Shown here: piece after piece, positions 3,009-38,014 of the stretch
Layout: each line of letters begins with the position of its first letter
How positions within the stretch are numbered: position 1 is the stretch's first letter
Source of the DNA: an uncultured Latescibacterota bacterium
Lineage (GTDB): Bacteria; Latescibacterota; UBA2968
NCBI GenBank assembly: GCA_958295785.1
Contig: OY282377.1
Span: 4,776,896 to 4,840,895, forward strand
Direction of reading: 5' to 3'
DNA length: 64,000 bases
Notes under the pieces: model-generated
Database searches by the model: none
The model's input: only the letters and a program-made list of their open reading frames with translations
Told to the model about the DNA's origin: nothing
Position numbers and translations under genes: made by a program

Positions 3009-3112
3009 GCACTTTCCTCCGGATTTGAACTCAGGAACAACGGGGGCACAATATCCGTCAAATTGGGTGAAAAACAAACTGAAAATCACGCGGTTATCAG
3101 GAGGGTATGACC

Positions 3113-7280: not shown

Positions 7281-7320
7281 ATTGCAAAAGCCGCTCACAA
7301 GAGGAGCGGCTTTTTTTTGT
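7281..7320 (+). repeat. Left 40-bp direct repeat (terminator of the isomerase gene)
   Basis: A perfect AAAGCCGCTC/GAGCGGCTTT stem with eight Ts forms a rho-independent terminator 15 bases after the isomerase stop. The same 40 bases recur without a mismatch at 12329-12368, so the repeat pair encloses the four-gene cassette 7511-12312. The copy next to the isomerase is likely the original. Confidence 0.9.
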
Positions 7321-9623: not shown

Positions 9624-11455
9624 AAGATGCAGACCGCAATCTATTTCCGATCAATTTTACCATACGTGCCCTGCGGGACAGCAGGTATCGCAACACCGCG
9701 TATGCCATTGCCGAGCTCATTGATAATTCAATAGAGGCAGACGCTCCACAGATCGAGCTCCTCTGCCTGGAAGAGTCCCAAATGGTAAAGGCTCGAACTC
9801 GGAGGCTGGTCTCGGAAATAGCAGTCTTAGACAACGGCACAGGAATGGATGTGAGGACTCTCCTTGACGCCCTCAAGTTCGGAGGCGGCACCCGGCATAA
9901 TTCCACAAGCGGAATCGGCAAATATGGCATGGGCCTTCCCACATCCTCGATGTCTCAGTGCAAGCGAGTGGATGTGTGGACATGGCAGGATGGATTAGAT
10001 TCGGCATGGCATTCCAGCATTGATGCAGACATTATTGAGCAGGGAGAGTACCTTGTTCCCATTCCGGACCAAAAGACGCCTATACCAGCGGCGTGGAGAA
10101 AAGCCGGCAGTGAAGAAATTTATGAAAGCCAATCAGGCACTCTCGTCGTATGGAGCAAATTGGACAAGATTCAATGGAGAACTGCCCATGCGATAATCGA
10201 GAATACATCTCGAGAGGTCGGGCGTATCCATCGACATTACATTAATGCTGAAATACATATAATACGAGCCGCATCTTTCTTCAAAAACCGGCCTATTAAA
10301 CGAGAACATGAGAGGCAATTCGTCGCGAACGATCCTCTCTATTTGATGAAGCCTACATCTGTTCCTGAAAAACCATGGGACAACGAACCGATGTTCACAC
10401 AGTGGAGTGAAAAGGACTACACCCCCATTGTTGATGGCAAAGAAGTAACCATTGAAGTAAAGTATTCAATCGTGAAACCAGAGGCACTGACGACAGATAG
10501 AGTGGCACAGAATCCAGGCGATATGCCTCGTGGCAAGCACGCCAGGCACAACATTGGCGTATCAGTCGTCCGGGAGGATAGGGAGATCGTTCTCGAGGAT
10601 GCCTTTCTCAGGGAGGGGGGTAGTGCTGAGAATCCACAGAATCGCTGGTGGGGTTGTGAGGTGCAGTTCCGTCGTAGTTGCGACGAGTTGTTTGGCGTGG
10701 ATCACAATAAGCAAATGGTTGCAAAGTTCACGCAGGCTGCAAAGACCCTTGCTCGTGATGACCGTTCTAGGCAAGTCATCTTAGACGAGATGGGACTTGA
10801 CGAGGATATCATCCATGAAATTGTGGGAGATATTCGCGACCAGACACGCTCCATGATGCGTCAAATAAGGCAGATGTTTGAGGAAAAAAGAAAGCCAAAG
10901 GAAAGCAATGGTAGAAAAAGTCCGGAAAACAAGGCCGTGCAGACTGCCACCGACGCAGATCGAGACGCTATAGCCGCCGGTAAAGAGCCGCCGACCAAAA
11001 CTGATATTGAACGCGAGCAAATTCCATCTGAACAACGGGAAGCTGGACTGACGGACCAGTTCATTGCATCTGGTCAATCCGATCAAGCGGCTCAACAACT
11101 CGCAAAGAGGTTGGTGCAAGAGGGGCTTTCATACCAATTCAATCCTGCCCAACTGGATGGCTACCAGATATTTAATGTGCGCTCGAGCCATGGCGTCTTG
11201 CACATCAATCTCAATACCGACCACCCGATCTACGACTTGCTCAAGCATGTTGAAGGGCGTCTCGGCGAGAATGGCGACGAGAATGATCCGGCATTCCAGG
11301 CCATTGTCGCCATCAGGTTGTTGTTGTCGTCTTGGGCACGGATGGAAGACGAGACCAGACCCAGGGAAGAACGCACACTGATTCAGGACATCGCCATGAA
11401 TTGGGGACGCCAAGTAGATAAGGTCATCAATCAACTGCGTGAGAGAGACGGATAG
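9599..11455 (+). CDS. GHKL (HSP90/MORC-like) ATPase of the cassette
   Basis: A 618-residue protein whose N-terminal third is a GHKL ATPase. The N box is AIAELIDNSIEA, the G1 box VLDNGTGMD, and the G2 region SGIGKYGMGLPTSSMS; a ribosomal-S5-like transducer probably follows. The middle has a charged linker (residues ~415-480: KEKRKPKESNG-like, Lys/Glu rich) before a C-terminal domain I do not recognise. MutL/MORC-type ATPases of this kind have been noted in bacterial restriction-like operons, where they are thought to clamp DNA in an ATP-dependent way. The ATG at 9599 has GGAGG just upstream. It overlaps the helicase and ends two bases before the PLD gene, so the three should be made together. 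Confidence 0.85.
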   Translation: MDDQLANLKDADRNLFPINFTIRALRDSRYRNTAYAIAELIDNSIEADAPQIELLCLEESQMVKARTRRLVSEIAVLDNGTGMDVRTLLDALKFGGGTRHNSTSGIGKYGMGLPTSSMSQCKRVDVWTWQDGLDSAWHSSIDADIIEQGEYLVPIPDQKTPIPAAWRKAGSEEIYESQSGTLVVWSKLDKIQWRTAHAIIENTSREVGRIHRHYINAEIHIIRAASFFKNRPIKREHERQFVANDPLYLMKPTSVPEKPWDNEPMFTQWSEKDYTPIVDGKEVTIEVKYSIVKPEALTTDRVAQNPGDMPRGKHARHNIGVSVVREDREIVLEDAFLREGGSAENPQNRWWGCEVQFRRSCDELFGVDHNKQMVAKFTQAAKTLARDDRSRQVILDEMGLDEDIIHEIVGDIRDQTRSMMRQIRQMFEEKRKPKESNGRKSPENKAVQTATDADRDAIAAGKEPPTKTDIEREQIPSEQREAGLTDQFIASGQSDQAAQQLAKRLVQEGLSYQFNPAQLDGYQIFNVRSSHGVLHINLNTDHPIYDLLKHVEGRLGENGDENDPAFQAIVAIRLLLSSWARMEDETRPREERTLIQDIAMNWGRQVDKVINQLRERDG

Positions 11456-12328: not shown

Positions 12329-12368
12329 ATTGCAAAAGCCGCTCACAAGAGGAGCGGCTTTTTTTTGT
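12329..12368 (+). repeat. Right 40-bp direct repeat (second copy of the terminator)
   Basis: Identical over all 40 bases to 7281-7320, including eight Ts after the GC-rich hairpin. It follows the PLD gene and can end the cassette transcript. Exact identity over a hairpin plus flanking bases, in the same orientation at both ends, points to insertion by duplication rather than to chance. Confidence 0.9.
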
Positions 12369-12599: not shown

Positions 12600-14006
12600 T
12601 CAGGTGTCTGTTCTCGGTGGCGATAGGTCTGTGCGGATGCCCGCTCGTTCGTCGACGGTTCGCAAGAGGAGGCCGCCCGCGATGAAGAACAGGCCCACGG
12701 TTGCCATGCCGATGCGCTGAGATTGAAAGGCTTCTGTGATTATGCCCATCAGCATCGGGCCGAGAAAGGCGGTGGCTTTTCCCGAGAAGGCGTAAAAGCC
12801 GTAAAATTCGGTTTCTTTCTGACGGGGTACAAAACGCCCCAAAAGTGACCGGCTGGCCGATTGGTTTGGGCCGGCAAAAAGGCCGACCAAAAGGCCCGCG
12901 ATCCAGAATTGGAATTTTGTATTGAAAATGAACGCTTGGATGGCCGATAAACTGGTCGATGTGTTTGAGTCGGCAAAAAGGCCGATCCAAAGGCCCGCGT
13001 CCCAGAACAGAAATTCAACCCAAAATTGGAAGCGTTCGGGGGGGATGACGGCAATGGTAGCCGCGATGACAAATCCGATCAGGGTGATTTGGATGGTGCG
13101 TTTGCCGCCGATGTGGTCGTCTAAAAAACCAAAACACCACGCGCCGATGCCAGCGGCGATGTTGATGATGATGCCAAAGAGCAGGACCTCTTCAATCGTG
13201 AAGCCAAATGTGCCCACCGCATAAATCCCGCCAAACGCAAAAATGGTGGTCAGGCCATCGTTGTACACGAGGCGGGCGAGCAACAGTTTGAAAATTTCGC
13301 GGTAGTGTTTGAGTTCGCGGAAGGTTTGCAGCAGGCGGCGGTAAGACGAAAGGAGTAGGTGTTCGTTGCGGGTTTGCCGCCCTGGCGTTTCGGGCAAATA
13401 GAAAAGGGCTGGCAGGCTGAAGATCGCAAACCAGATCGCAACGCCGACATTGGTCGCTCGGATGTGTGCGTGGGTTTCTTTGGACAGGCCAAACCACGGG
13501 GTTTCTGGGGATACAAAGCCGACCATGAGAACGGTCATAGAGAGCAGGCCCCCAAAGTAACCTATGCCCCAGGCCTGTCCCGAAATGCGCCCCATGCGCT
13601 CCGGCGGGGCGATGTCGGGCAAAAAGGCGTTGTAAAATACCGTGCCCATTTCAAAGCCGATACAGGCGATGATGTAGAGGGTCAGCGCGAAGGTGGCTTG
13701 CCCTTGTTGGGGAAAATAGAGCAGGGCGGTGAAGACAACCGCGAGGAGTGTCGTCCACATCAAAAAGCGTTTGCGACACCCGGCTTGGTCGGCGAGCGCG
13801 CCGAGGGGTGGGGACAGCAATCCGACGACGAGCATGATGATCGCCACGCCCCGAGACCACAAAACCGTGCCGGCAATCTCATTGTCAGCGATGACTTTGG
13901 CAAAAAATGTCGCGTAGATGAACGTGGTGACGTTGTTGGCAAAGGACGAGTTTGCAAAGTCGTACATCATCCACGCGAGGATGGTTTTGCGGTGGGTGCT
14001 TTTCAT
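12600..14006 (-). CDS. MFS transporter, UMF1/Atg22-like family
   Basis: A 468-residue membrane protein with 12 or more hydrophobic segments. It starts WMMYDFANSSFANNVTTFIY, the signature of the UMF1 family, and has LADQAGCRKRF as the MFS loop 2-3 motif. Family members are putative solute exporters or importers with unassigned substrates. The ATG at 14006 overlaps the stop of the upstream lactonase gene (ATGA), so the two are coupled. Unusually, a 33-residue block including FWIAGLLVGLFAGPNQS is preceded by a diverged copy (FWDAGLWIGLFADSNTS) 99 bases away, which would add about one extra transmembrane segment between the usual ones. The transporter may move the lactonase product. Confidence 0.85.
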   Translation of the reverse strand: MKSTHRKTILAWMMYDFANSSFANNVTTFIYATFFAKVIADNEIAGTVLWSRGVAIIMLVVGLLSPPLGALADQAGCRKRFLMWTTLLAVVFTALLYFPQQGQATFALTLYIIACIGFEMGTVFYNAFLPDIAPPERMGRISGQAWGIGYFGGLLSMTVLMVGFVSPETPWFGLSKETHAHIRATNVGVAIWFAIFSLPALFYLPETPGRQTRNEHLLLSSYRRLLQTFRELKHYREIFKLLLARLVYNDGLTTIFAFGGIYAVGTFGFTIEEVLLFGIIINIAAGIGAWCFGFLDDHIGGKRTIQITLIGFVIAATIAVIPPERFQFWVEFLFWDAGLWIGLFADSNTSTSLSAIQAFIFNTKFQFWIAGLLVGLFAGPNQSASRSLLGRFVPRQKETEFYGFYAFSGKATAFLGPMLMGIITEAFQSQRIGMATVGLFFIAGGLLLRTVDERAGIRTDLSPPRTDT

Positions 14007-16816: not shown

Positions 16817-17092
16817 CGCTGAATAGACGAATGGATGAATAGACGAATGGACGCACAGGCGTAGCCTACAACGCAGGGCAGCAAGTAATCCCGCCCCTCG
16901 ACACATTGTAGGGGCGGTGCCCCCGTGCCCGCCCGAAAGTCAGTGGTCAGTCCCCACCCAACCCCAAAACCCGACGCACTCCGCCGATGAACTGGCCTGA
17001 GTAGCGGGGTACAACGGGCTGTCTCTCAAGCCCGTCCGTTGATTCGTAGAGGTATGTTTTGTGTACTGTAATTGAACAGAATGGAGGGCGAG
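16817..17092. repeat. Intergenic repeats before the ThuA gene
   Basis: A GTAGGGGCGGTGCCCC hairpin copy lies at 16908-16935, followed by a CAGTGGTCAGTCCCC repeat and by a GAACTGGCCTGAGTAGCGGG/TACAACGGGCT hairpin-type repeat around 16988-17018. No gene is visible. A promoter for the ThuA gene should be near the right end. Confidence 0.6.
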
Positions 17093-17758
17093 ATGAACAT
17101 TTTGATGTTGCGGCATTCGGCGGGTTTTGAACACAGTTATTTGCCCGATGCCGAGGTGGCTTTAAAGGCGATAGGCAAAGCGAATGGATGGCGGGTTTTG
17201 ACCACGCATCGGTTGGATCGCATTTCAGCAGCGCATTTGGAAAAGTGCGATGTTTTGGCTTTTGCCACGACCGGGAATTTGGCTTTTAGCGAGGAACAAA
17301 AGACCGCGATTTTGGATTTTGTTCGCAATGGAAAATCGTTTTTTGGCATTCACAATGCAACCGATACGTGCTATGACTGGCCCGAATACGGCGAGATGCT
17401 CGGCGGATGGTTTAACGGTCATCCCTGGCATCAGGAGGTGGGGATTATTGTTGAAGATACATCTCATCCAGCGACAGAGATGCTGGGCGACTATTTTCGG
17501 GTGACGGATGAGATTTACACGTTTAAGCATTACAATCGCGACAAGACGCATGTTTTGATGCGGATCGATAATCAGACCGTGGATTTGGCAAAAGGCAACC
17601 GCGAGGATGGCGATTACGCGATGGGATGGTGCCACGAATACGGCCAGGGGCGCGTGATCTATACCGCCTTGGGGCATCCCGACGCGCTGTGGTATGAAGA
17701 TTGGTTCCGGGCGCATATCACGGGATGTGTTCAATGGGCAGCGCGGCTGGCGGATTAG
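17093..17758 (+). CDS. ThuA domain protein
   Basis: A 221-residue ThuA-like protein, a class I glutamine-amidotransferase fold used in trehalose and related sugar metabolism. FARNGKSFFGIHNATD-type and GWFNGHPWHQEV segments, plus DEIYTFKHYNRDKTHVLMR and GRVIYTALGHPDALW, are typical. The nucleophile Cys of real amidotransferases is not conserved in this family, so the reaction is unknown. I chose the ATG at 17093, five bases after GGAGG, over the ATG at 17081. Members often sit with Gfo/Idh/MocA and DUF1080 genes in keto-sugar pathways, in line with the 1-7 kb region. Confidence 0.88.
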   Translation: MNILMLRHSAGFEHSYLPDAEVALKAIGKANGWRVLTTHRLDRISAAHLEKCDVLAFATTGNLAFSEEQKTAILDFVRNGKSFFGIHNATDTCYDWPEYGEMLGGWFNGHPWHQEVGIIVEDTSHPATEMLGDYFRVTDEIYTFKHYNRDKTHVLMRIDNQTVDLAKGNREDGDYAMGWCHEYGQGRVIYTALGHPDALWYEDWFRAHITGCVQWAARLAD

Positions 17759-17778: not shown

Positions 17779-17815
17779 GTTATGCACATATCCACACAGG
17801 CGTTGTTTGCAAATT
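17779..17815 (+). repeat. Left 37-bp direct repeat with DnaA-box-like sites
   Basis: Thirty-seven bases identical to 19649-19685. The repeat contains TTATGCACA, a match to the TTATNCACA DnaA-box consensus, directly followed by TATCCACAC, a near-match. Together the copies enclose the dual-OB/DUF488/DUF488 trio. It lies 20 bases after the ThuA stop codon. Confidence 0.88.
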
Positions 17816-17891
17816 TCATTCTTTGCCCTTTTAATGGAACGCCGGCCGCAAGCAAGAGCGCAGTATCAAGCCGTCGGATTGGGGTGCTATA

Positions 17892-18574
17892 ATGACAATG
17901 ACAAAGAGAATTGTTTGCTTGGCGAACTCGCGGAAACGGTCTGGTCGTTGCATTGTCGGGCGGGAACTTATCGATAGCTGTGCGGGAGTTTGGGTTCGCC
18001 CTGTGAGTGCCCGCGAGCATCAGGATGTATCGGAGTACGAACGCCAGTACGAGGATGGAAGCGATCCCAAGTTGATGGATATCGTGGAGGTTCCATTGCT
18101 GGCACACCAACCAAGGGACTACCAACAGGAAAACGGGTTGCTCGATCCGCAGGACTGCTGGAGAAAAGTTGACAAATGCCCTTGGCATGATCTGCAACAA
18201 TTATCCGAGACAGGCGGGACGCTGTGGCGCAACGGATACAGCACGCACAACGGAAGAAACGATCAAATCCCGCCACAGCAGGCAAAAGAGGAAACAACTC
18301 GCTCAAGTTGATCTATGTCGATAAGTTGTATCTGTGCGTGTTCGCGCCGGGTGAGGCTTTCGGAAACTCGAAACGCCGCGTACAGGGACGGTTTCGTTTT
18401 AGCGAGAATGACTATGCTCTGTGGATCACTGATCCCGATATCGAGACCGCTTATCTCAAGCGCGAAAATGGCAACTACGACCTGTCCGAATGTTATCTGA
18501 CCATCAGCCTCGGCGAACCGCATAAGGGCTACTGTTACAAACTGATCGCCGCTGTCATGGAGAGACCGCGATGA
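17892..18574 (+). pseudogene. Dual-OB-type protein gene, frameshifted
   Basis: Two overlapping frames give one protein when joined near 18285-18295. The first part (TKRIVCLANSRKRSGRCIVG ... VRPVSAREH ... LWRNGYSTHNGRNDQIP) runs in one frame from 17892. The second part (NNSLKLIYVDKLYLCVF ... GEAFGNSKRRVQGRF ... YALWITDPDIE ... YLTISLGEPHKGYCYKLIAAVM) runs in another and ends at 18574. The joined ~225-residue protein resembles a two-OB-fold family usually found next to DUF488 genes. A one-base change in the AAAAGAGGAAACAA stretch would explain the break, as either a real mutation or an assembly error. The 3' part overlaps the next gene's start by ATGA, so the operon layout is intact. Confidence 0.72.
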
Positions 18575-19197
18575 CGAAATCTGTAGAGAAAACGAGGATA
18601 TTTACCGTGGGCCATTCAACCCATGAGTTTGAGGACTTCGTATCCTTGTTAAAGTTGCACAGCATAGATGCCGTTGCGGATGTGAGATCGGTTCCATACA
18701 GCCGTTGGCAGCCGCAATTTAATCGCGAAGGCTTGGCGAAAGCCCTGGATGACCAGGGCGTTGCCTATGTTTTTCTCGGCGAGGAGCTCGGCGCACGCAG
18801 TGACGATCCGAGGTGTTACGAGAAAGGCCGAGTGAAGTATCGCTCAATCGCTGAAACCTCGCTGTTTCGGGCTGGAATAGAGCGGATCCGAGACGGGTGT
18901 AGTCGCTGGCGGATTGCTTTGATGTGTGCGGAGAAGGAGCCATTGGACTGCCATCGGACGATTCTCGTGGCTCGCGAATTGGTGGCAGGCGGGTCGGAGG
19001 TCGCACACATTCTTGAGGATGGGGAACTGGAAGCCCACGGAGCGACGATGAAACGCCTGTCTGAGCAATTGAGGTTGCCTATGCAGGATCTGTTTCTTAC
19101 TGCGGAGGAGTTGGAGGATAGGGTATACGCGGCCCAAGAACAGCGCATTGCATATCTTGACGCGCAACGCACTTGCGAAGCGCAGGAGGCTGGATAA
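18571..19197 (+). CDS. DUF488 family protein, first copy
   Basis: A 208-residue DUF488 protein: IFTVGHSTHEFEDFVSLLKLHSIDAVADVRSVPYSRW, FLGEELGAR and LMCAEKEPLDCHRTILVA are the family's conserved blocks. The paired Cys/His in CAEKEPLDCHR resembles a metal or catalytic site; the function is unknown. The ATG overlaps the stop of the dual-OB gene (ATGA) and the stop overlaps the next gene's ATG by one base (TAATG), so translation of all three should be coupled. DUF488 genes are frequent in mobile and defence-associated neighbourhoods. Confidence 0.85.
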   Translation: MTKSVEKTRIFTVGHSTHEFEDFVSLLKLHSIDAVADVRSVPYSRWQPQFNREGLAKALDDQGVAYVFLGEELGARSDDPRCYEKGRVKYRSIAETSLFRAGIERIRDGCSRWRIALMCAEKEPLDCHRTILVARELVAGGSEVAHILEDGELEAHGATMKRLSEQLRLPMQDLFLTAEELEDRVYAAQEQRIAYLDAQRTCEAQEAG

Positions 19198-19646
19198 TGA
19201 AAATTTTCACCATTGGTTTCACCAAAAAGAGCGCGGAACAGTTTTTTGAAAGTTTGCATCTGGCAGGCGTCAAGCGGGTCGTTGATGTGCGGCTCAATAA
19301 CGTATCCCAGTTGGCGGGCTTTGCAAAAAAAAATGATCTTGCGTACTTTTTGAAGCGAATTTGCGGCATGGATTACCTGCATCTGCCGAGTTTGGCACCG
19401 ACAAAGGAAATCCTGGATGATTACAAAAAAAAACGCGGCAGTTGGGACGCTTATGAACGCGCTTTTATCGATCTTATGGTTGCCCGAAAAATAGAAAACG
19501 AAATTGAGCGGGAAACCCTTAAGGATGCGTGCCTGCTGTGTAGCGAGGACAAACCCCATTATTGCCACAGGCGTTTGGTGGTTGAGTATCTTCAGAAACA
19601 CTGGGGGAATATTGAAGTTGCCCACCTTGGGGAGGAGCAGCGATAA
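19197..19646 (+). CDS. DUF488 family protein, second copy
   Basis: A 149-residue DUF488 protein, shorter than and diverged from its upstream neighbour: MKIFTIGFTKKSAEQFFESL, VKRVVDVRLNN, CLLCSEDKPHYCHRRLVVEYL. It retains the C-S-E-D-K-P-x-x-C-H-R block. I chose the ATG at 19197, eight bases after GGAGG, because the family begins with this strand. It ends two bases before the right copy of the 37-bp repeat. Two DUF488 paralogues in series suggest a heteromeric partner pair; the role is unknown. Confidence 0.86.
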   Translation: MKIFTIGFTKKSAEQFFESLHLAGVKRVVDVRLNNVSQLAGFAKKNDLAYFLKRICGMDYLHLPSLAPTKEILDDYKKKRGSWDAYERAFIDLMVARKIENEIERETLKDACLLCSEDKPHYCHRRLVVEYLQKHWGNIEVAHLGEEQR

Positions 19647-19648
19647 GC

Positions 19649-19685
19649 GTTATGCACATATCCACACAGGCGTTGTTTGCAAATT
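19649..19685 (+). repeat. Right 37-bp direct repeat with DnaA-box-like sites
   Basis: Exact repeat of 17779-17815, same orientation, starting two bases after the second DUF488 stop codon. The Fic gene begins 44 bases further on. Confidence 0.88.
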
Positions 19686-19729: not shown

Positions 19730-20494
19730 ATGATGATCGAAAAGCCGCCATACTCAATCACGACGGACATTCTGTTTCGCGTTGAGCAAATCGGCGAAGC
19801 AATTGGCAGGGCAGAAGCGGCGGGTGTCTGGCAGAATTTGCGTTTGCGGCGCATCAATCGCATCCGCACGATTTGCGGCTCGCTGGGCATTGAGGGCAAT
19901 ATCCTCAGCGAGGCGCAAGTTTCCGCGATTCTCGATGGCAAACCGGTTGCCGCCCCGTTGAAAGATATTCAGGAAGTTCGCAACGCCATCAAAGCCTACG
20001 ACCAATACCAGCAGTGGAACCCGGATAGCGAGGCCGACCTTCTGCACGCGCCCCGAGTGCTGATGCTCGGCTTGTTGGATGCGCCCGGACAATATCGCCG
20101 CACCGGCATCGGCGTTATGGGCGGTGGCGAAGTCCATCACATCGGCCCGCCGGCCCGGCGCGTGCCGTTGCTCATGGCAAACTTGTTGGCATGGCTGGGC
20201 AGCACCGATGAGCACCCGCTGATTGCCAGTTCGGTTTTTCACTATGAGTTTGAGTTCATCCATCCCTTTGAAGATGGCAATGGCCGGATGGGGCGGCTCT
20301 GGCAGACCCTGATTCTGACCCACTGGAAACCCCTGTTCGCCCATATTCCCGTAGAGAGTTTGGTTCACGCCCGCCAAAGCGATTACTACGAAGCCATCAG
20401 GCAGAGTTCGGCAGGAGGCGAAAGTACGCCGTTCATTGCGTTCATGCTGGAGATTATTCACGCGGCACTCCAGTTACAGGAGATTTTCCGATGA
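19730..20494 (+). CDS. Fic family AMP-transferase, with built-in inhibitory helix
   Basis: A 254-residue Fic protein. FIHPFEDGNGRMGRLWQTLIL is the HPFxxGNGRxxR catalytic loop near residues 180-195, with the His as general base. An N-terminal SLGIEGNILS motif around residues 47-56 fits the S/T-x-x-x-E-G/N inhibitory helix of class II Fic proteins, so the enzyme is probably self-inhibited by its own N-terminal part. Such proteins attach AMP (or other nucleotides) to target Tyr, Ser or Thr. The start ATG at 19730 follows GAGGAG. The stop overlaps the next ATG (ATGA), pairing it with the HIRAN-like gene. Fic genes are frequent next to type I restriction genes, as here. Confidence 0.9.
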   Translation: MMIEKPPYSITTDILFRVEQIGEAIGRAEAAGVWQNLRLRRINRIRTICGSLGIEGNILSEAQVSAILDGKPVAAPLKDIQEVRNAIKAYDQYQQWNPDSEADLLHAPRVLMLGLLDAPGQYRRTGIGVMGGGEVHHIGPPARRVPLLMANLLAWLGSTDEHPLIASSVFHYEFEFIHPFEDGNGRMGRLWQTLILTHWKPLFAHIPVESLVHARQSDYYEAIRQSSAGGESTPFIAFMLEIIHAALQLQEIFR

Positions 20495-21237
20495 GCGTGA
20501 AGACCTTGTTCTTGGCGTGGCAAGACAAAGAATGGAGCCGACAATGGTTTCCCGTGGGGCGGTTGGATGCCGATGTCGAACAATCGCACTATCGCTTTCG
20601 TTATACGGCCGGGGCGAAACGAGCAGAGAGGGAGACAGGATTTCCTCCTTTGCCTGATTTTCCCCAATTGGCTGAAGATTATCGATCCTCAGAGCTTTTT
20701 CCGCTGTTCAGGAATCGGGTCATTGCGCCGGGAAGGCCGGACCGTTTGGACTATCTGCGTAATCTCGGCCTGCCAGAAGACGCGGACCCGATTGAAATTC
20801 TATCGGTAAATGGCGGCTTTCGAGTGACGGATAATTACGAGGTTTTCCCGAAACTCGAGAAGGATATTGAGGGAAGATTTACCTGCCGGATCTTTCTGCA
20901 TGGTTGGCAACATGTAAATGAAGCCGCTCAAGAACGGTATGGTCGTCTGGAGCCGGGAGAAGAACTTTATGTAACTTTGGAGTTGGCTAATCCTGCCACC
21001 CGGCTGGCGGTGCAAATCCAGACGAAAGACTACTATATGATCGGCTGGGCACCGCGTTACCTCGTGGATGATTTGGCAATGGCGATGGTCAAAGGACCTA
21101 GTGACTATACAGCAAAAATAGTGCGTATTAATCCTCAGCCAGCACCGTTGAAGCAACGCGTTTTGATTGAGATGCATGGCTACTGGGATAAGCACGAACC
21201 GATGAGTAGCCAGGATTTCCAGCCCTTAGTTGATTGA
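20491..21237 (+). CDS. HIRAN-domain-like protein
   Basis: A 248-residue protein. The first ~130 residues (LFLAWQDKEWSRQWFPVGRLDAD, YRFRYTAGA, FPQLAEDYRSSELFPLFRNRV, DPIEILSVNGGFRVTDNYEVFP) match a HipA-N-like domain found in annotated HIRAN proteins. The last ~100 residues (ERYGRLEPGEELYVTLELANPATRLAVQIQTKDYYMIGWAPRYLVDDL) look like a HIRAN domain, which binds DNA ends or single strands in repair helicases. It is coupled to the Fic gene by an ATGA overlap. No catalytic motif is visible; a DNA-sensing partner for Fic or the restriction enzyme is possible but inferred. Confidence 0.75.
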   Translation: MSVKTLFLAWQDKEWSRQWFPVGRLDADVEQSHYRFRYTAGAKRAERETGFPPLPDFPQLAEDYRSSELFPLFRNRVIAPGRPDRLDYLRNLGLPEDADPIEILSVNGGFRVTDNYEVFPKLEKDIEGRFTCRIFLHGWQHVNEAAQERYGRLEPGEELYVTLELANPATRLAVQIQTKDYYMIGWAPRYLVDDLAMAMVKGPSDYTAKIVRINPQPAPLKQRVLIEMHGYWDKHEPMSSQDFQPLVD

Positions 21238-21333
21238 TTGTTGCGTTTGCCAATTGAAGTTGAACACCTAGGCAGGAGCGGCGATGATGGCAACCGGCGC
21301 ATTCGCGGGCTGTGCTGTGAATAAGGAGATAGG

Positions 21334-22488
21334 ATGAGGGATAAAGTGAGAAACGCGCCCCTCGGTGATTTCGTTCAGTTTGTTTACGGGAAAGGACTAC
21401 CCGCTCGTGATCGAAAACCTGGGGCTGTTCCCGTGTATGGATCGGGTGGCATTGTCGATACTCACAACCAATCTCTCGTTCAAGGCCCAGGCGTGGTGGT
21501 TGGTCGTAAAGGGACGATTGGGTCCGTGTATTGGACGGATCGGGATTTCTACCCCATAGATACGACCTATTACGTCGTTCCCAAAACAGAGGACACGCGA
21601 CTGAGGTACATTTACTACTTGCTGAAGACGTTGCCGCTTACTCGTATGAACACTGACGTTGCTGTTCCCGGACTGAATAGATCAAACGCTCTGCAACTCA
21701 AGGTTTCTATCCCATCGCTACCAACACAGGACAGAATCGTTGACATCCTCTCTGCCTACGACGACCTCATCGAAAACAATCGGCGGCGGATTCAGCTGCT
21801 GGAACAGGCGGCGCGGTTGCTCTACAAAGAGTGGTTCGTCCACCTTCGCTTTCCCGGGTATGAACGCGCCAAAATTATTGATGGCGTGCCGGAGGGGTGG
21901 AAAAAGAAAACGATTGCTGAGGTATGTGAGACTATCGGGGGCGGCACACCATCCACCAAAGTGGCAGAGTATTGGGGAGGCGACATCACCTGGGTCATTC
22001 CCTCCGATGTTACGAAAAACGACTGTTTAGCCCTACTTGACTCGGAACGAAAAATTACCGAAAGAGGGCTTCGTGAATCGTCCGCGCAGTTGGTTCCGGC
22101 TAACACCATTCTAATGACAAGCCGGGCGTCCGTAGGGTTTTTCGCGCTCATAGATGTTGAAGCCTGCACTAATCAAGGATTCATCAATATCATTCCTCAC
22201 GTCGAGGAAATGAGGATGTACATGCTTTTTAACCTCATGAGTCGAGTTGCCGAGATTCGTAGCAATGCAAAGGGGACAACGTACCCCGAGATAAGCAAAG
22301 GGCGGTTTCGTCAGATGAATATTATCCTTCCAGCGGAATCCTTGGTTTCCGAGTTCGGGAGATTGGCTGGTGACTTTATTCAGCAAGTGCGTTGCTTGAA
22401 GCGAAAAATAGTCAAACTCACCCAAGCCCGCGATCTGCTTTTGCCTCGGCTGATGAATGGGGAGGTAGAGGTTGCAAGCAGGGATTAG
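21334..22488 (+). CDS. hsdS: Type I restriction-modification specificity subunit
   Basis: A 384-residue HsdS with two target-recognition domains. The first is residues ~1-145, with LGDFVQFVYGKGLPAR and VPGLNRSNALQLKVSIPSLPTQDRIVDILSAYDDLIENNRRRI as its conserved helix end. The second is residues ~185-380, with TIAEVCETIGGGTPS, FRQMNIILPAESLVSEF and TQARDLLLPRLMNGEV. Each domain reads one half of a bipartite DNA site and the helical spacers dock to HsdM. The start follows AAGGAGATAGG. It comes first in the operon (hsdS-ATPase-hsdR-hsdM), an unusual order. Confidence 0.92.
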   Translation: MRDKVRNAPLGDFVQFVYGKGLPARDRKPGAVPVYGSGGIVDTHNQSLVQGPGVVVGRKGTIGSVYWTDRDFYPIDTTYYVVPKTEDTRLRYIYYLLKTLPLTRMNTDVAVPGLNRSNALQLKVSIPSLPTQDRIVDILSAYDDLIENNRRRIQLLEQAARLLYKEWFVHLRFPGYERAKIIDGVPEGWKKKTIAEVCETIGGGTPSTKVAEYWGGDITWVIPSDVTKNDCLALLDSERKITERGLRESSAQLVPANTILMTSRASVGFFALIDVEACTNQGFINIIPHVEEMRMYMLFNLMSRVAEIRSNAKGTTYPEISKGRFRQMNIILPAESLVSEFGRLAGDFIQQVRCLKRKIVKLTQARDLLLPRLMNGEVEVASRD

Positions 22489-22600
22489 AGGGAGAGTACT
22501 TCGCACAAACTGGGGGTAAGTTTCAATCTGTGCTTTATACAGCATGTCATGTTGACTGATCGCGTTCACAGAACACGATTAAAAAATAAGGAGTTGTGTA

Positions 22601-24271
22601 ATGGCTAAAGCAGATCAATCAGAGTTCAAGTTCCGAAAAATGGACACAATCGGTGCCGCCAGTGCGGAGGATGATGGCGAATTTCTTGAAGACTGCTTTG
22701 TGAAAACTGAATCCTATGAGGTGCTGGAGAGTAAAGAGGACATTCGTCAGATTGTTCTCGGCCGGACAGGTTCAGGAAAGTCCGCGCTCTTTGAGTACCT
22801 TAAACTGGAGTACGAAGACCGAGACCGAGTTATCTCAATTGAACCCAGCGAACTCGCCCTTACTTATGTTTCAAATTCCACAGTGATCAAGTATTTCTCA
22901 GATCTCGGCGTAAATTTGGATCCCTTCTACAAATTGCTCTGGCGACATGTTTTGACGGTTGAAGTACTGAGAAAGCATTTCGAGTCACACGCAAGTAATG
23001 AGAAAAAAGGAATTTGGAACTCCCTTCTTGAGAGGTTCCCAGATCAGACCCGCAAAGACAAAAATGCAAAACAAGCCGTACAATATCTACGAGAATGGGG
23101 TGAGCAGTTCTGGGAAGAAACAGAGTACCGAGTCAAGGAAATCACGACCAAGATCGAGGATAAACTAAAAGATCATCTTAAGGCTGAAGTAAAAGCGCAG
23201 TTGTTCAAGGTAGGGGCATCATCCGGGGCGGATTCACTTCTTTCAAAAGAAGAAAAAACTGAAGTAATAAGCCGAGGCCAGCATGTAGTCAGCGAAGCTC
23301 AGATCCAAGACCTAAGCAAGGTACACAATCTTTTAGAAAACGTTCTGACTGATCGGCAGAAGTACTACTATGTATTAATTGATCGTCTTGATGAGAATTG
23401 GGTTGAAGAGAAACTGCGTTATCGACTGATCATGGCACTGCTGGACTCTGTAAAGGAAATCAGCCGAGTGTCGAACATCAAGGTTCTGGTTGCCATTAGG
23501 CGCGATTTGATTGATCGTGTTTTCAGGCTTGTGCGTGAGGCTGGGTTCCAAGAGGAGAAATATCAATCTCTGTATTTACCCCTACATTGGTCTCCAAAAA
23601 AAATAATTGAGATACTAGACAAGCGAGTAGATGCATTAGTCGCTCGGCGATATCAAAAGAACAAAAGAGTTACGCATCGTGACTTATTACCGAAAAAGAT
23701 TGATGGAAAATCCATTATAGAATTCATTACTGACCGTGCCCAAAGACCTCGAGATGTGATCAGCTTTTTCAATAAGTGTATCGAAGTAGCTGAAGGGAAG
23801 CCTCGGGTGAATGTGAATACACTGAAACGTGCCGAGGGAGAGTATTCTCGGCAACGTCTGAGAGCCCTTGCAGATGAATGGCATGCAGACTATCCAGGCT
23901 TGTTGGACTTTGTGGATATTCTAAAGAAACGCCCGCCAAAATTCTCCTTGGAGCAAGTCAAATATGATGATATTGCCGAGCTTTGCCTAAATTCGGCAAT
24001 AGAGCATCCTAACGATTCTGGGATTTTGAGAGAATATGCGAGAAACGTCGCAGAGGACTTAGTAGAAGTAAACGACTTCAAAAAAGAAATGTTTATGGTA
24101 TTTTATCGGATCGGTTTGGCCGGTCTAAAGCTCGAGACCTTTGAGAGCGCATCGTGGGTTGATGAATTAGGTCAAGATGTCTCACCTTCTGAAATAGACG
24201 ACCGTACGGGCGTAGCAGTTCACCCTACCTACTGGCGATCTCTTGGGATCGATACAAGAAAGCGCCGTTAG
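22601..24271 (+). CDS. P-loop ATPase between hsdS and hsdR (Sll1717-like)
   Basis: A 556-residue P-loop protein. GRTGSGKSALFEYL is the Walker A near residue 55, YYYVLIDRLDENWV a Walker-B-like strand near residue 265, and DRAQRPRDVISFFNKC a sensor-like helix near residue 380. The pattern matches the Sll1717-type P-loop ATPases often found in defence islands. The middle (residues ~150-230) is Lys/Glu-rich and probably coiled coil. It is markedly more AT-rich than its neighbours, indicating separate acquisition. AAGGAG lies seven bases before the ATG. It may be an accessory regulator or a separate abortive defence module nested in the restriction operon. Confidence 0.8.
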   Translation: MAKADQSEFKFRKMDTIGAASAEDDGEFLEDCFVKTESYEVLESKEDIRQIVLGRTGSGKSALFEYLKLEYEDRDRVISIEPSELALTYVSNSTVIKYFSDLGVNLDPFYKLLWRHVLTVEVLRKHFESHASNEKKGIWNSLLERFPDQTRKDKNAKQAVQYLREWGEQFWEETEYRVKEITTKIEDKLKDHLKAEVKAQLFKVGASSGADSLLSKEEKTEVISRGQHVVSEAQIQDLSKVHNLLENVLTDRQKYYYVLIDRLDENWVEEKLRYRLIMALLDSVKEISRVSNIKVLVAIRRDLIDRVFRLVREAGFQEEKYQSLYLPLHWSPKKIIEILDKRVDALVARRYQKNKRVTHRDLLPKKIDGKSIIEFITDRAQRPRDVISFFNKCIEVAEGKPRVNVNTLKRAEGEYSRQRLRALADEWHADYPGLLDFVDILKKRPPKFSLEQVKYDDIAELCLNSAIEHPNDSGILREYARNVAEDLVEVNDFKKEMFMVFYRIGLAGLKLETFESASWVDELGQDVSPSEIDDRTGVAVHPTYWRSLGIDTRKRR

Positions 24272-24383
24272 TGATGTGGTATCTGATAATGGGGTACATC
24301 ATCCTCGGATAGACTCCGAAGCAGTAGGCAGAAATATCGTCTTACCGAAAAGCACAGAAACATACTGAATAACAGGAGAAAGG

Positions 24384-27300
24384 ATGAACGCACTCCCCTA
24401 CACAGAAGACGCGCTCGTTCAGCAGACCACTGCTGATTATCTCGAGCGGCAACTCGAGTGGGAATCGGTCGATGCCTTCAACAGCGAGGACTTTGGGCCG
24501 CAGAGCTTGTTGGGGCGGGCTTCTGACCGCGAGGTGGTGTTGGTGCGTGTCTTGCGCGAGAAGTTGGTCGAGTTGAATCCTGGCCTGCCCGATGCCGCTT
24601 ATGAGGATGCGGTGCGGCAGATCACCGCCGCTGTTGCCTCGCAGACCATTGTCGCCGCCAACCGGGAAAAGTGCGATTTGATGCGCGATGGGGTGCAAGT
24701 CGCGTTCCGCAACGACAAGGGCGAGCGGGCACAGGAGCGGCTGCGCGTTTTCGACTTTGAGACGCCCGAGAACAACGCCTTTCTGTGCGTGCGCGAACTT
24801 TGGATACGCGGGGATCTCTATCGCAGGCGGGCGGACATCATCGGCTTTGTCAATGGCCTGCCACTGTTGTTCATCGAGTGCAAGAACATCTACCGAGACC
24901 TCAAGGCGGCGTTCGAGGAGAACTATTCGGACTACCGAGACACCATCCCGCACCTATTTCATCACAACGCGGTGGTGATGTTTGGCAATGGCGAGCAGGC
25001 GAAGATCGGCTCGATCACCAGCGAGTGGGCGCATTTTCACGAGTGGAAGCGATTGGCCGAGGGCGATCCGGGCGCGGTGGATATGGAGACGTTGCTCAAG
25101 GGCGTTTGCAACAAGCGCGATTTTATGGACATCGTGGAGAACTTCATTTTGTTCGACGACTCGGCGGGCGAAGTCCGGAAAATCCTCGCCCGCAACCACC
25201 AGTTCTTGGGCGTGAATCGGGCGGTTGAGGCGGTGCGAGAGCGCGAAACGCGACGGGGCAGATTGGGCGTGTTTTGGCACACGCAGGGCGCGGGCAAGAG
25301 CTATTCGATGGTGATGTTCACCCGCAAGGTACACCGCAAGTTGGGCGGCAATTTCACGTTTTTGGTGCTGACGGACCGCGACGATCTCGACCGGCAGATC
25401 TACAAGACCTTTGCCGGTTGCGGCGTGGTGAACCACGAGCGCGATCCATGCCGCGCGGCGGATGGCGCACACCTGAACCAATTGTTGACCGAACACAAAT
25501 CGCATGTCTTCGCCCTGATTCAGAAATTCAACCGCGATGCGGGCGCGGAATACACGCAACGCGCCGACATTATCGTCATCACGGACGAGGCGCACCGCAC
25601 GCAATACGGCGCGTTGGCGGCCAACATGCGCGCAGCACTCCCCAACGCCAGTTATATCGGGTTTACCGGCACGCCGTTGTTCACTTATGACGAGATCACG
25701 CGGCGGGTTTTTGGCGACTACGTCTCGACCTACGATTTCCAACGGGCGGTGGAGGACCGGGCCACAGTGCCGCTCTACTACGACGCCCGCGGCGACGAGT
25801 TGGGCTTGGGGGTTGGGGACCTGAATGCGCGCATCGCCGAAAAGCTAAATGAGTTTGAACTTGACGACATTGACGTGGAGCACCGGTTGGAGCGGGAACT
25901 CAAGCGCGACTACCACGTTATCACCGCGGTCCGTCGGCTCGACCAAGTGGCGCGGGATTTCACGCGGCACTATTCAAAGGCGTGGGAGACCGGCAAGGCG
26001 ATGCTGGTCTGCATTGACAAAGTGACCTGCGTGCGGATGCACAAGTTGATCGCGTTCTACTGGCATGAACACATCAAAGAATTAGAAGCGGAGCTTTCGC
26101 GGACAAAGGACGAGCAGGAGAAAATGGACCTGCGGCGGCGGCTCAACGGGATGCGCGAGACCCGCATGGCGGTGGTGATCAGCGAGGAGCAGGGCGAGGT
26201 GGAGAAGTTCAACGAGTGGGGCTTGGACATCGTCCCGCACCGCAGGCTCATCAAAGAGGGCATGGACTTGCCCTGTGCGATGCGGAACAAACCGCAGTTT
26301 CGCAACATGCAACGGATGGCACTAGACGACGCGTTCAAGGCCGAGGAGCACCCGTTCCGCATCGCCATTGTCTGCGCGATGTGGCTGACCGGCTTTGACG
26401 TGCCGAGCCTTTCCACGCTCTATCTGGACAAACCGCTCAAGGCCCATACCCTGATGCAGGCGATAGCCCGCGCCAACAGGGTGAGCGAGGGGAAAAACAA
26501 CGGCATGATCGTGGATTATTGCGGCATTCTCAAACACCTGCGCCAAGCACTGGCGACTTTCGCCGGCACTCGGCCCGATGGGGGTGACGCGATTGACCCG
26601 GCAAGGCCCGCTGAGGAATTGCTGGCGGATTTGGCCGAGGCCATCGCCTTTGTGCGGAACTTCCTCGCCGAGCGCAACGCGCCGCTCGATGACGTCATCC
26701 AAAAAACGGGTTTCGGGCGCAACGCCGCCATCGCGGCTTGCAAGGAAGCGGTCAATGAGAGCGACGAGACGCGCAAGCGTTTCGAGGTGATGTGCCGCGA
26801 GGTGTTCAAGAAGTTCAAGGCGTGCATCAACGTGCGGGGCGTTGGCGTATATCGCAAGGACCGAGACGCCATCGACATTGCATATAGGAGCCTGCAACGG
26901 GATCGCAAACAGGCCGACATTTCGGCGATTATACGGGCGTTACACGGGGTGGTAGATGAGGTCATTGAGACGAAGGGCAATACAATGACCGCAAAGCCAT
27001 CAGAATCCTATGACATCAGCCGCATTGATTTTGATCGCCTGAAGCGAGAATTTGCGCGCAGCCCAAAAAAGAATACCATCGTTCAAGATCTCAGGCAGGC
27101 AGTGGAACGACAGCTACAACGCCTTTTGATGCAGAACCCGCTCCGCCGCACGAACTTTCAGCAATACTACGAAGAGATCGCGGCGGCGTACAATCGAGAG
27201 AAGGACCGCGTGACAATAGAGCGCACTTTCGAGGCATTGCTCGAACTGGCGCGGGCGTTGGATGAGGAAGAAAGCCGAGCGGTGCGCGAAGGACTCGATG

Positions 27301-27623
27301 AGGAGACCTTGGCCATTTTCGATTTGTTGGAGAAACCTGACCTGAACGCAGGCGAGATCGCACGGATCAAGAAGGTCGCCATTGACCTGCTAAAAAAGTT
27401 GAAGGCGGGGAAATTGCGCGTGCATCAATGGCGGGAGAAGGAAAAGACCCGGGACGCGGTTCAAGTTGCCATCTCTAATTTTCTGTGGAGCGATCAAACC
27501 GGTTTGCCGGCTGAGCAGTACACGAAAGAGGACGTGCAAACGAAAACCGAGGCGGTCTTTTGTCACGTTTTCCGGGCCTACCCCACGGTGCCATCGCCGC
27601 ACTACGAAAGCCGAGCAGCGTGA
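24384..27623 (+). CDS. hsdR: Type I restriction endonuclease subunit R
   Basis: A 1,079-residue HsdR. The N-terminal PD-(D/E)xK nuclease has ADIIGF near residue 150 and FIECKN near 163-168. The helicase has Walker A HTQGAGKSYS near 298, ITDEAHRTQYG near 400, GFTGTPLF near 430, TGFDVPSLSTLYLDKPL near 675 and MQAIARANRVSEGKNNG near 695. A C-terminal helical region of about 300 residues docks to the methylase. The enzyme translocates DNA with ATP and cuts at random far from the site when it is unmethylated. The start follows AGGAGAAAGG. All motifs are intact, so it should be active if HsdM and HsdS are. Confidence 0.95.
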   Translation: MNALPYTEDALVQQTTADYLERQLEWESVDAFNSEDFGPQSLLGRASDREVVLVRVLREKLVELNPGLPDAAYEDAVRQITAAVASQTIVAANREKCDLMRDGVQVAFRNDKGERAQERLRVFDFETPENNAFLCVRELWIRGDLYRRRADIIGFVNGLPLLFIECKNIYRDLKAAFEENYSDYRDTIPHLFHHNAVVMFGNGEQAKIGSITSEWAHFHEWKRLAEGDPGAVDMETLLKGVCNKRDFMDIVENFILFDDSAGEVRKILARNHQFLGVNRAVEAVRERETRRGRLGVFWHTQGAGKSYSMVMFTRKVHRKLGGNFTFLVLTDRDDLDRQIYKTFAGCGVVNHERDPCRAADGAHLNQLLTEHKSHVFALIQKFNRDAGAEYTQRADIIVITDEAHRTQYGALAANMRAALPNASYIGFTGTPLFTYDEITRRVFGDYVSTYDFQRAVEDRATVPLYYDARGDELGLGVGDLNARIAEKLNEFELDDIDVEHRLERELKRDYHVITAVRRLDQVARDFTRHYSKAWETGKAMLVCIDKVTCVRMHKLIAFYWHEHIKELEAELSRTKDEQEKMDLRRRLNGMRETRMAVVISEEQGEVEKFNEWGLDIVPHRRLIKEGMDLPCAMRNKPQFRNMQRMALDDAFKAEEHPFRIAIVCAMWLTGFDVPSLSTLYLDKPLKAHTLMQAIARANRVSEGKNNGMIVDYCGILKHLRQALATFAGTRPDGGDAIDPARPAEELLADLAEAIAFVRNFLAERNAPLDDVIQKTGFGRNAAIAACKEAVNESDETRKRFEVMCREVFKKFKACINVRGVGVYRKDRDAIDIAYRSLQRDRKQADISAIIRALHGVVDEVIETKGNTMTAKPSESYDISRIDFDRLKREFARSPKKNTIVQDLRQAVERQLQRLLMQNPLRRTNFQQYYEEIAAAYNREKDRVTIERTFEALLELARALDEEESRAVREGLDEETLAIFDLLEKPDLNAGEIARIKKVAIDLLKKLKAGKLRVHQWREKEKTRDAVQVAISNFLWSDQTGLPAEQYTKEDVQTKTEAVFCHVFRAYPTVPSPHYESRAA

Positions 27624-27688
27624 TGGCAACGCGCTACGGCTGTCCGTTGTGCCCGATTATGACCTATATACTGGGATCGGTTTGGTTT

Positions 27689-27715
27689 TGGGCGAGCACG
27701 GGGGCGTCGCCCCTA
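27689..27715 (-). repeat. REP-like hairpin repeat, inverted copy
   Basis: GGGCGAGCACGGGGGCGTCG followed by CCCCTAC, an inverted relative of the 4561 repeat, in the 193-base gap between hsdR and hsdM. A relative of the ATGAACTGGCCTGAA hairpin family follows at about 27725. Host-type repeats inside the operon suggest the type I genes have been resident for some time. Confidence 0.65.
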
Positions 27716-27816
27716 CAATTCGTCTATGAACTGGCCTGAAAAATGGTCAATTGTACACCGTTCCGTCTGTTCGTCTGACAACATAAAATCAAATTGGTAT
27801 TACACAGGAGAGACGA

Positions 27817-29892
27817 TTGCCCCAACTCGAACACATCGAAGCGATTGAACGCCGCCTCTGGGGCGCAGCCGATACCTTGCGGGCAAACTCCGGCTATGCT
27901 AGCAATGAGTACTTCCTGCCAGTCATGGGCTTGGTTTTTCTGCGCCATGCCTACAGCCGCTATCTCGCCGTCAAGGACGACATAGAAGCCAACCTGCCCA
28001 CCCGCGGCGGCGAGAAGCGCGATTTCACCAAAGAGGACTTTTCCCAACGGAGTGCCATCCTCCTACGGCCCGAGGCGCAGTTCGATTACTTGGTCGGCCT
28101 GCCCGACAGCGAGGACCGTGCGAAGGCGATCATCGCGGCGATGGCGTCTATTGAAAAGGACTACGAGAGCCTGCGGGGTGCCTTGCCCACGGGCGAATAC
28201 CGAGAAATAGACAACGCCGTTCTCGGCCAACTTTTGCGCCGACTCAATCCCGACGAACTCAAGCAGATATCCGGCGACATCTTCGGGCGCATCTACGAGT
28301 ACTTCCTCACTCAGTTTGCCGACCAGAAGGCTCACGATGGCGGCGAGTTCTTCACGCCTGTCTCGCTGGTTTCGCTGATCGCCCATGTCCTCGAGCCCGA
28401 CTGCGGAACAGTGCTTGACCCGGCCTGCGGGTCGGGCGGCATGTTTGTGCAGAGTGCGCGCACGGTTGCGGAACACGGTCGGCGTCCCGGCGAGCAACTC
28501 ACTTTTCGCGGCTTGGAGAAGAACGCCACCACCATCCGCTTGGCCAAGATGAACCTCGCTGTACACGGGCTTGAGGGCGACATCAAACAGGCGATCACTT
28601 ATTACGAAGACCCGCACCAACTGGTCGGCAAGGCCGACTACGTGATGGCCAATCCGCCTTTTAACGTGGATGAGATCGACGCCGATAGAATCAAGGCCGA
28701 TCCGCGCCTGCCCTTCGGGCTGCCCGGCGTCAACAAAAAGGACAAGGTCAGCAATGGCAACTACGTTTGGATCAGCTACTTTTACAGCTACCTAAACGAG
28801 ACGGGGCGGGCCGGCTTTGTCATGTCGTCGCAGGCGTCTAGTGCCGGGGGCGGCGAGGCCAAAGTGCGGCGGCAACTGGTGGAGACCGGCGATGTGGAAG
28901 CGATGATCGCCATTCGCTCCAATTTTTTTTATACGCGCACTGTGCCCTGTGAGTTGTGGTTCTTCAACCGCGCCAAGCCCCAAGAGCACCGCGACAAAGT
29001 GCTGATGATCGACGCCCGCAACATTTACCGCAAGGTGACGCGCAAGATCTACGAATTTAGCCCTGAGCAAGCGCAGAACCTGCTGGGTATTGTTTGGCTC
29101 TACCGGGGTGAGACAGCGCGTTTTCTCGACCTCGTGTTCCGGTATCTAAGCGATGCGGTGAACGGAGCGCGTGCCTGCTTTGAGCGAGAAGGCGAGGATG
29201 GCGAAACGACCGGCCCCCTGCCGGCGTTTCTCGCCGCGCTTGCGGATGTGTGCGAGGTGTTGCTTCCGTTTTTCAATACCATCGGAGACGATGCCGGGAT
29301 GTACGCGGAACTGAACGTTGCCCGCCGCGCTTTCATCGCTGAGGTGGATGATTTTGAGAAGGCCGTCTCCGCGCAAGGGCAAGATGACGCCGCGCTTGGG
29401 CAGACCGTTGACCGTCTCGCCCCAATGGCCGAGGCCAGCCGCGATTTGGTCAAGCGGGCCGATTTGATCTACAAGCTCGTCGCTCGCCTGATCGAGACCT
29501 GCGAGAAGGGAGGTCACGCGAGCGGTGCTTGGAATAACCGCGACATCGTTCTCGCACGCAGGGCAGTGGACGATGCCCGCCAGCACGCCGTGGAGCACCT
29601 CGAGCAGGCGCGCTATTTTTGGCGCCATGCACGCTGGCTCACCGAGCGTTTTCCCGATGCGGAATTGCGCGATGTGGAGGGGTTGGTCAAGCTGGTAGAT
29701 CGCGCTGAGATCGAGGCCAACGACTGGAGCCTAACGCCTGGCCGCTATGTCGGCGTCGCCCCCGAAAAAGAGGACGAGGATTTTGATTTTGCGGAGGCCC
29801 TGCGCGAGATCCATGTGGAACTGGAAGACCTCAACGCCGAGGCGGTGACGCTGGCGGCCACGATCGGGAAGAACTTCGAGGAGTTGTTGTGA
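27817..29892 (+). CDS. hsdM: Type I restriction-modification DNA methyltransferase subunit
   Basis: A 691-residue N6-adenine methylase. The N-terminal helical domain (LWGAADTLRANSGYASNEYFLPVMGLVFLRHA) precedes DGGEFFTP, the SAM motif VLDPACGSGGMFV near residue 200 and the catalytic NPPF near 280. An extended C-terminal helical region (~430-690) is seen in the longer HsdM type. The start is TTG at 27817, six bases after AGGAGA; no better ATG exists upstream. It protects the host DNA at the HsdS-specified site and forms the core of the HsdR-HsdM-HsdS complex. It lies last in the operon, after hsdR, separated by a repeat-bearing gap that may carry its own promoter. Confidence 0.94.
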   Translation: MPQLEHIEAIERRLWGAADTLRANSGYASNEYFLPVMGLVFLRHAYSRYLAVKDDIEANLPTRGGEKRDFTKEDFSQRSAILLRPEAQFDYLVGLPDSEDRAKAIIAAMASIEKDYESLRGALPTGEYREIDNAVLGQLLRRLNPDELKQISGDIFGRIYEYFLTQFADQKAHDGGEFFTPVSLVSLIAHVLEPDCGTVLDPACGSGGMFVQSARTVAEHGRRPGEQLTFRGLEKNATTIRLAKMNLAVHGLEGDIKQAITYYEDPHQLVGKADYVMANPPFNVDEIDADRIKADPRLPFGLPGVNKKDKVSNGNYVWISYFYSYLNETGRAGFVMSSQASSAGGGEAKVRRQLVETGDVEAMIAIRSNFFYTRTVPCELWFFNRAKPQEHRDKVLMIDARNIYRKVTRKIYEFSPEQAQNLLGIVWLYRGETARFLDLVFRYLSDAVNGARACFEREGEDGETTGPLPAFLAALADVCEVLLPFFNTIGDDAGMYAELNVARRAFIAEVDDFEKAVSAQGQDDAALGQTVDRLAPMAEASRDLVKRADLIYKLVARLIETCEKGGHASGAWNNRDIVLARRAVDDARQHAVEHLEQARYFWRHARWLTERFPDAELRDVEGLVKLVDRAEIEANDWSLTPGRYVGVAPEKEDEDFDFAEALREIHVELEDLNAEAVTLAATIGKNFEELL

Positions 29893-36550: not shown

Positions 36551-36611
36551 CTGGCGGGGGGCAACCATATAAGAACGCGGATGAAGTGTGAGGTGCAAAG
36601 TGCAGAGAGGT

Positions 36612-37050
36612 AATGCCAATTTGATTTTTAATTGTCCGTATCCTGCCTCCCATTAGGGATGAATGAGAAATGGGGAACAGACGTTCCGTAGAGATCATGC
36701 GTTGCTCGTCTTAAGCGTTTGGCCTTACAGCATCGTTTGTTGCCTTCAATGCGTTGGCTACGCCTGTGCCTACGGCGTGCGGCGTCAAACGCTCAAATTA
36801 TTCGCGTTTTCCTACTTTTTTTTATCAGCAAAAAAAAGTAGGAAAAAAATGCCGCTCTCAAACGCCGAGAGGCTTGCACAGCGCAAATCGCTTTTGTAGT
36901 AGCACGACATGCGTTGGCCTGCGAAGAGAGTTGCAAGAGGGAGGTGGGTTGCGAGACGGCCTTGCGCGCTGTGCGTGATGGCTTTGTGTGACGGTATTTT
37001 GTGATCGCATTTTTGCGATGGTTTCTCTGAATGACTGCGTAAGGTCAAGG
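36612..37050 (+). repeat. ~430-bp dispersed non-coding repeat, copy 1
   Basis: First of three similar copies (also 48928-49360 and 54882-55345), all on the same strand. Shared landmarks in order are TGTCCGTATCCTGC, GAACAGACGTTCCGTA, GTTGCTCGTCTTAAGCGTTTG, GTTGGCTACGCCTGTGCC, a CAGCAAAAAAA tract with CCTACTTTTTTTTATC ahead, ATGCCGCTCTCAAACG, GCTTGCACAGCGCAAA and ACGACATGCGTTGGCC, then GGTTGCGAGACGG. No conserved open frame is seen, so it may be a structured RNA or an inactive mobile element. Confidence 0.75.
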
Positions 37051-37105
37051 GAATCATTTGCGGGTCGCATATCGCATCACATGAGGTCAACTGAAAATCA
37101 ATTTA

Positions 37106-38000: not shown

Positions 38001-38014
38001 TAAGTGGTATCCCC

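Follow-up and report, generated by a model that had tools for sequence, protein, structure and literature searches.

In the genome of an uncultured Latescibacterota bacterium, two 37-bp direct repeats (GTTATGCACATATCCACACAGGCGTTGTTTGCAAATT) enclose a dual-OB (DuOB) gene and two DUF488 genes, which raises the question of what these repeats are and how they came to flank these three genes. The locus is part of a stretch of 64,000 nucleotides, called the window here. Exact repeats around a dual-OB/DUF488/DUF488 trio had been described in the initial annotation, and both copies are indeed present and identical (Table 1). In the whole genome of 5.66 Mb, the 37-mer has two copies at up to three mismatches. 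No degenerate copy was found, the best other local match in the genome reaching 31.9 bits (E=0.09). When the window was simulated 30 times with a Markov-1 model, the longest exact repeat arising by chance was 14-17 nt. In addition, the 37-mer is absent from 63 other genomes of the phylum, and searches against plasmids gave chance-level matches alone (E >= 0.4). A common dispersed sequence, which the initial annotation had set against its own proposal, is excluded by these two copies and the lack of degenerate ones. The search that it had suggested for the 37-mer beside DUF488 genes elsewhere was carried out, and no other trio examined has the sequence in its flanks. CRISPR arrays alternate short spacers with repeats of 20-50 nt at regular intervals, and this identity was rejected for two copies with 1833 nt in between.

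Table 1. Positions of the features in the window and of the related motif in congeners (L037-L048 are loci of other genomes).
Feature	Position	Strand	Remarks
ThuA-like gene	17072-17758	+	PF06283 6e-49; left anchor, genus-conserved
37-bp direct repeat, copy 1	17779-17815	none	begins 21 nt past the ThuA stop, ends 76 nt 5' of the DuOB start
PDC-M45A / DuOB, N-terminal part	17892-18311	+	PF22557 1.4e-41, PDLC04653 1.5e-52; cut by frameshift near 18301
PDC-M45A / DuOB, C-terminal part	18224-18574	+	PF22557 6.5e-22; other frame
PDC-M45B, DUF488 protein 1	18571-19197	+	PF04343 3.4e-24; PDLC04657 7e-84
PDC-M45C, DUF488 protein 2 (DUF488-N3a)	19197-19646	+	PF04343 3.4e-24, PF22751 3e-10; PDLC04658 3e-74
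37-bp direct repeat, copy 2	19649-19685	none	begins 2 nt past the M45C stop, ends 44 nt 5' of the Fic start
Fic-family gene	19730-20494	+	PF02661, SoFic PDLC03963; right anchor, follows ThuA-dehydrogenase-SMP30 in relatives
Rest of defence island	20491-29892	+	PDC-M03B/HIRAN, HsdS, weak STAND-like ATPase, HsdR, HsdM
29-bp motif GTRGCGCRATYTCGCRTGATTMNNTACAT upstream of Fic	L040:4929-4957, L045:5728-5756, L047:3751-3779, L048:15898-15926		
29-bp motif GTRGCGCRATYTCGCRTGATTMNNTACAT upstream of DuOB in G030	L037:5684-5712		

The initial annotation had also pointed to a DnaA-box-like sequence in the repeat, and had proposed the repeat as a possible replication site of a small cassette. The 9-mer TTATGCACA in the 37-mer is an exact match to TTATNCACA, and it lies within 17 nt with the better second 9-mer, ATATCCACA, which matches at eight of nine positions. 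This pair of boxes would fit a small replicating cassette with a site for DnaA binding or replication, but their number is at chance level: sites like TTATNCACA with at most one mismatch occur 36 times in the window versus 34 expected, and TTATGCACA occurs 42 times in the genome versus 38 for the reversed control. Also, no replication protein or gene was found between the repeats with Pfam and PADLOC profiles. The consensus 9-mer is thus present at chance frequency, its role in replication is not supported, and the identity of the 37-mers as a replication site was rejected as extremely improbable.

The trio is the PADLOC candidate phage-defence module PDC-M45, with M45A, M45B and M45C encoded together in this order and all three proteins matching the A, B and C models (E 1e-52 to 1e-84). 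In contrast to the known module, the DuOB gene in the window is frameshifted, and exact 37-bp flanks are foreign to PDC-M45. In the literature searched, no paper on PDC-M45 or DuOB and no phage-protection assay of PDC-M45 were found; its status in PADLOC is that of a candidate. The gene overlaps that had been annotated are present (ATGA at 18571-18574 and TAATG at 19195-19199). The assigned protein families also held, except that DuOB is not one open frame but is divided over two frames, which cover positions 1-124 and 118-210 of the DuOB profile. Alignment with the intact genes of G030 and G031, two Latescibacterota metagenome-assembled genomes of the same genus, showed that a deletion of 1 nt near 18301 splits the gene, and DuOB is intact in relatives. 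Compared with G031, the C-terminal part has a dN of 0.12 and a dS of 1.06, and dN/dS is approximately 0.11-0.15 for both DuOB halves and both DUF488 genes, indicating either a recent break or an error of sequencing. Unless it is such an error, the frameshift probably disables the module in this genome. A 1-nt frameshift within a gene under purifying selection could also point to an assembly or sequencing artefact at the edge of the repeat. This is very unlikely, since the genome is a single contig, the genes joined at the two flanks, ThuA and then Fic, stand in the order expected and the remaining frames of the unit are open.

The position of the trio differs between members of the genus. In the window genome, the order is ThuA, 37-mer, trio, 37-mer and Fic. 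In the six congeners that have both anchors, the gene order is ThuA, 2-hydroxyacid dehydrogenase, a convergent SMP-30 gene and Fic, and the best homologue of this dehydrogenase in the window genome is only 45% identical. The ThuA-like gene itself shares 72-83% DNA identity with that of 13 other family members. G030 and G031 carry the trio in the same hotspot at another position, approximately 6 kb and 10 kb from ThuA, respectively, and in G031 it is directly upstream of an hsdS gene. As the six congeners hold two other genes between ThuA and Fic and the trio, in those that have it, lies elsewhere, it appears to have been placed here as a unit. No precise empty site was found among the congeners, and the event is therefore read as a replacement of these two genes. 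The trio is without any mark of recent import from afar. Its dS between the window genome and G030 or G031 is 0.67-0.98 and does not exceed that of ThuA (1.2-1.8), and its GC content is similar to the window's, indicating a module native to the genus that was moved or exchanged within it.

Other features of these regions were observed as well. A weak STAND/mad8-like ATPase is encoded at 22601-24271 of the window, where it separates hsdS from hsdR in a type I restriction system, and the right part of the window (36600-40100 and 47800-64000) is dense in IS4/5-type transposase genes and contains several dispersed-repeat families. In the G031 locus (L038), a 54-nt stretch from the 3' end of M45C (10785-10838, 87% identical to 13038-13091) lies approximately 0.5 kb upstream of the trio, 5' of a ParS-like antitoxin gene, and is a second sign of past module rearrangement in the genus.

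The reading that we favour, with some reserve, is that a compact PDC-M45 unit, including its 5' region, was inserted at the border of ThuA and Fic in a defence hotspot, and that this event duplicated the junction and so left the 37-mers. The unit of 5' region and operon would have been placed at this border in exchange for the two other genes. The route may have been a circular or tandem intermediate captured by recombination, either Campbell-like or illegitimate, and such a capture would duplicate the edge of the target and give rise to the 37-mers. The window also contains a 40-nt sequence in two exact copies (7281-7320 and 12329-12368), an intrinsic-terminator sequence directly past two stop codons. 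Repeats of such size can thus have other causes, which counts against an insertion scar, as does the lack of a precise empty site among the congeners.

Flanking repeats were compared with those of other PDC-M45 loci. The M45C alignment was scanned against 84,980 species genomes, which confirmed at least 553 relatives, 80 of which were kept; the A-B-C order is present in 60 of these 80 loci, from many phyla. In 68 loci, the 600 nt before DuOB were compared with the 150 nt after M45C. Four loci (the window locus G000, L081, L106 and L082) scored above every control of mismatched pairs or displaced windows, and 64 have no flanking repeat. Because G000 was picked for its repeats, it was left out of the enrichment count, giving 3/67 loci versus 0/403 mismatched pairs and 0/245 displaced windows, and versus 2/381 similar-size gene units from the same and related loci (p=0.026). 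Relative to the gene-unit controls, the enrichment is modest and is carried by three loci, so that, with most loci blank, the pattern remains a lead. In L081, a 252-nt repeat (96%) spans the 3' end of a TPP-enzyme gene; in L106, a repeat of ~95 nt (82-85%) spans the 3' end of an rlmB-like gene; and in L082, a repeat of ~37 nt (84%) lies just beyond a thioredoxin-like gene. In all four loci, the downstream copy begins 2-43 nt past the M45C stop (3-43 nt in the three others) and the upstream copy ends 76-378 nt 5' of DuOB. The repeat sequences are unrelated among the four loci and their lengths differ, which favours a fixed unit whose insertion duplicates the edge of the target, and argues against one conserved att site. 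Repeats flanking L080 and L076 were set aside as dispersed REP-like repeats, and scores of L097 and L072 were discarded as index artefacts at contig ends. For L106, an empty site was sought in relatives: an rlmB match was present in 85 of 101, and the same convergent pair in none of the 19 loci read.

The 37-mers could also stem from a tyrosine-recombinase-type event and be its attL and attR cores, the enzyme having acted in trans or since been lost. The exact 37-nt flanks surround a complete operon, and the repeats of the window, L106, L081 and L082 coincide with or lie close to the 3' ends of adjacent genes, a usual target of integrases. In addition, a site-specific integrase is encoded approximately 4 kb from the trio on an Agrobacterium plasmid. 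However, besides the divergence of the repeats between loci, the 37-mer was found in no other genome or viral contig searched, profile searches revealed no recombinase between or beside the repeats, and no integrase family recurs among the sampled second neighbours of PDC-M45, with resolvases at 2 of 101 first neighbours. This explanation is considered somewhat unlikely. With repeat length and sequence varying per locus and no recurrent recombinase family, capture is favoured over a dedicated site-specific enzyme. An integron attC site, which requires a foldable inverted repeat and a GTTRRRY end, was rejected for the 37-mer, which starts with GTTATGC and forms no stable hairpin (z +0.9 to +1.1). 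The window unit resembles integron cassettes and integrative elements at gene 3' ends in its compact cargo and its direct-repeat flanks near gene ends, but differs from them in having no integrase, no attC hairpin and no core common to loci. Of the small cassette with a recombination site that was first suggested, the cassette is therefore supported by the trio at a site holding other genes in six relatives and by the repeats at the other loci, whereas a conserved recombination site is not.

Another explanation, regarded as unlikely, is that two operons, the trio and Fic, each received a copy of a promoter or operator, namely the 37-mer. Both copies end 44-76 nt upstream of start codons, but at unequal spacing, no sigma-70-like site was called at the 37-mer, and a third copy in the genome is absent. 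A different motif, GTRGCGCRATYTCGCRTGATTMNNTACAT, lies 5' of Fic in four congeners, and G030 has it 5' of the trio, indicating that upstream DNA is common to both in the genus. This motif, which is possibly a common promoter of hotspot genes in the genus, is absent from the window. As an insertion junction, the locus would be a case of a stand-alone candidate defence operon that moved into or within a hotspot with no obvious recombinase and left a readable scar, and the scar geometry, with its downstream copy 2-43 nt past the last stop, would be a signature for locating mobile-unit boundaries.

The proteins provide indications of what the module may do. The structure model of the intact G031 DuOB protein (pLDDT 94.8) has HIN-200 domains as its best PDB matches, followed by RPA70, POT1 and telomere-end-binding proteins, all of which are tandem-OB nucleic-acid binders. 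With a best E of 1.2e-3 and a global TM of 0.3-0.4, the likeness is architectural and homology is not proved. The model suggests that DuOB may bind DNA or DNA ends. Across 37-40 relatives, the DUF488 proteins retain a CHR motif and invariant cysteines, in the motifs CLLCSE...CHRR and MCAE...CHR. We take the DUF488 / DUF488-N3a and DuOB families to be those of the RapZ-C-DUF488-DUF4326 clade of the rhodanese-phosphatase superfamily, for which Burroughs and Aravind, writing in NAR Genom Bioinform in 2023, reportedly predicted DNA-end chemistry. The trio proteins agree with these families in their Pfam matches and conserved Cys/CHR motifs, but the published function is a prediction and the best fold match of M45C is weak (E 0.04). 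In the proposed mechanism, recognition of DNA or its ends would fall to DuOB, and processing of the ends to the DUF488 pair as putative enzymes. The likeness of DuOB to tandem-OB DNA-binding and sensing proteins offers a direct biochemical handle on an uncharacterised defence candidate of many phyla. A wider proposal, which is decidedly unlikely as a whole, is that PDC-M45 is a mobile cassette of ~2 kb, a fixed unit of 5' region and A-B-C that inserts beside gene 3' ends in unrelated phyla, duplicates 37-252 nt of target and needs no cassette-encoded recombinase (using host recombination or an enzyme in trans), with DuOB as a bacterial HIN-200-like tandem-OB DNA sensor. Taken together, the locus is an already known candidate defence module, broken here as sequenced, with an apparent relocation scar; the scar geometry and the DuOB fold are the parts that deserve follow-up.

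PDC-M45 is found in multiple genomic contexts. The trio lies beside CBASS genes on the Agrobacterium plasmid and beside CRISPR-associated Csm6/Cas1 genes on an Allochromatium plasmid, and housekeeping genes are common among its first neighbours. No DuOB was found in phages and no trio DNA in E. coli genomes. Schlafen AlbA_2 / HATPase_c_4 proteins account for 10 of the 101 immediate-neighbour proteins scanned, and this protein, directly beside the module (for example, L039:7126-8355), is possibly a fourth component. In a DuOB-DUF488-DUF4326 variant, DuOB is likewise followed by an M45C-like DUF488 gene, but DUF4326 replaces one DUF488 gene and the set is carried by small enterobacterial and Acinetobacter plasmids, the smallest of 4.2 kb. 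Positions 2370-4028 of the 4167-bp Klebsiella plasmid CP052514.1 (L136), approximately 1.7 kb, hold DuOB, an M45C-like DUF488 and a third, DUF4326-like ORF, and this gene order recurs with annotated DUF4326 on other plasmids of these groups. In a Nitrospira contig (L097), two DuOB copies that are 92% identical lie at the two ends (1-328 and 4019-4346), which suggests a possible tandem duplication of the trio, and an ORF between them (3011-3406) resembles, by eye, a putative tyrosine-recombinase remnant.
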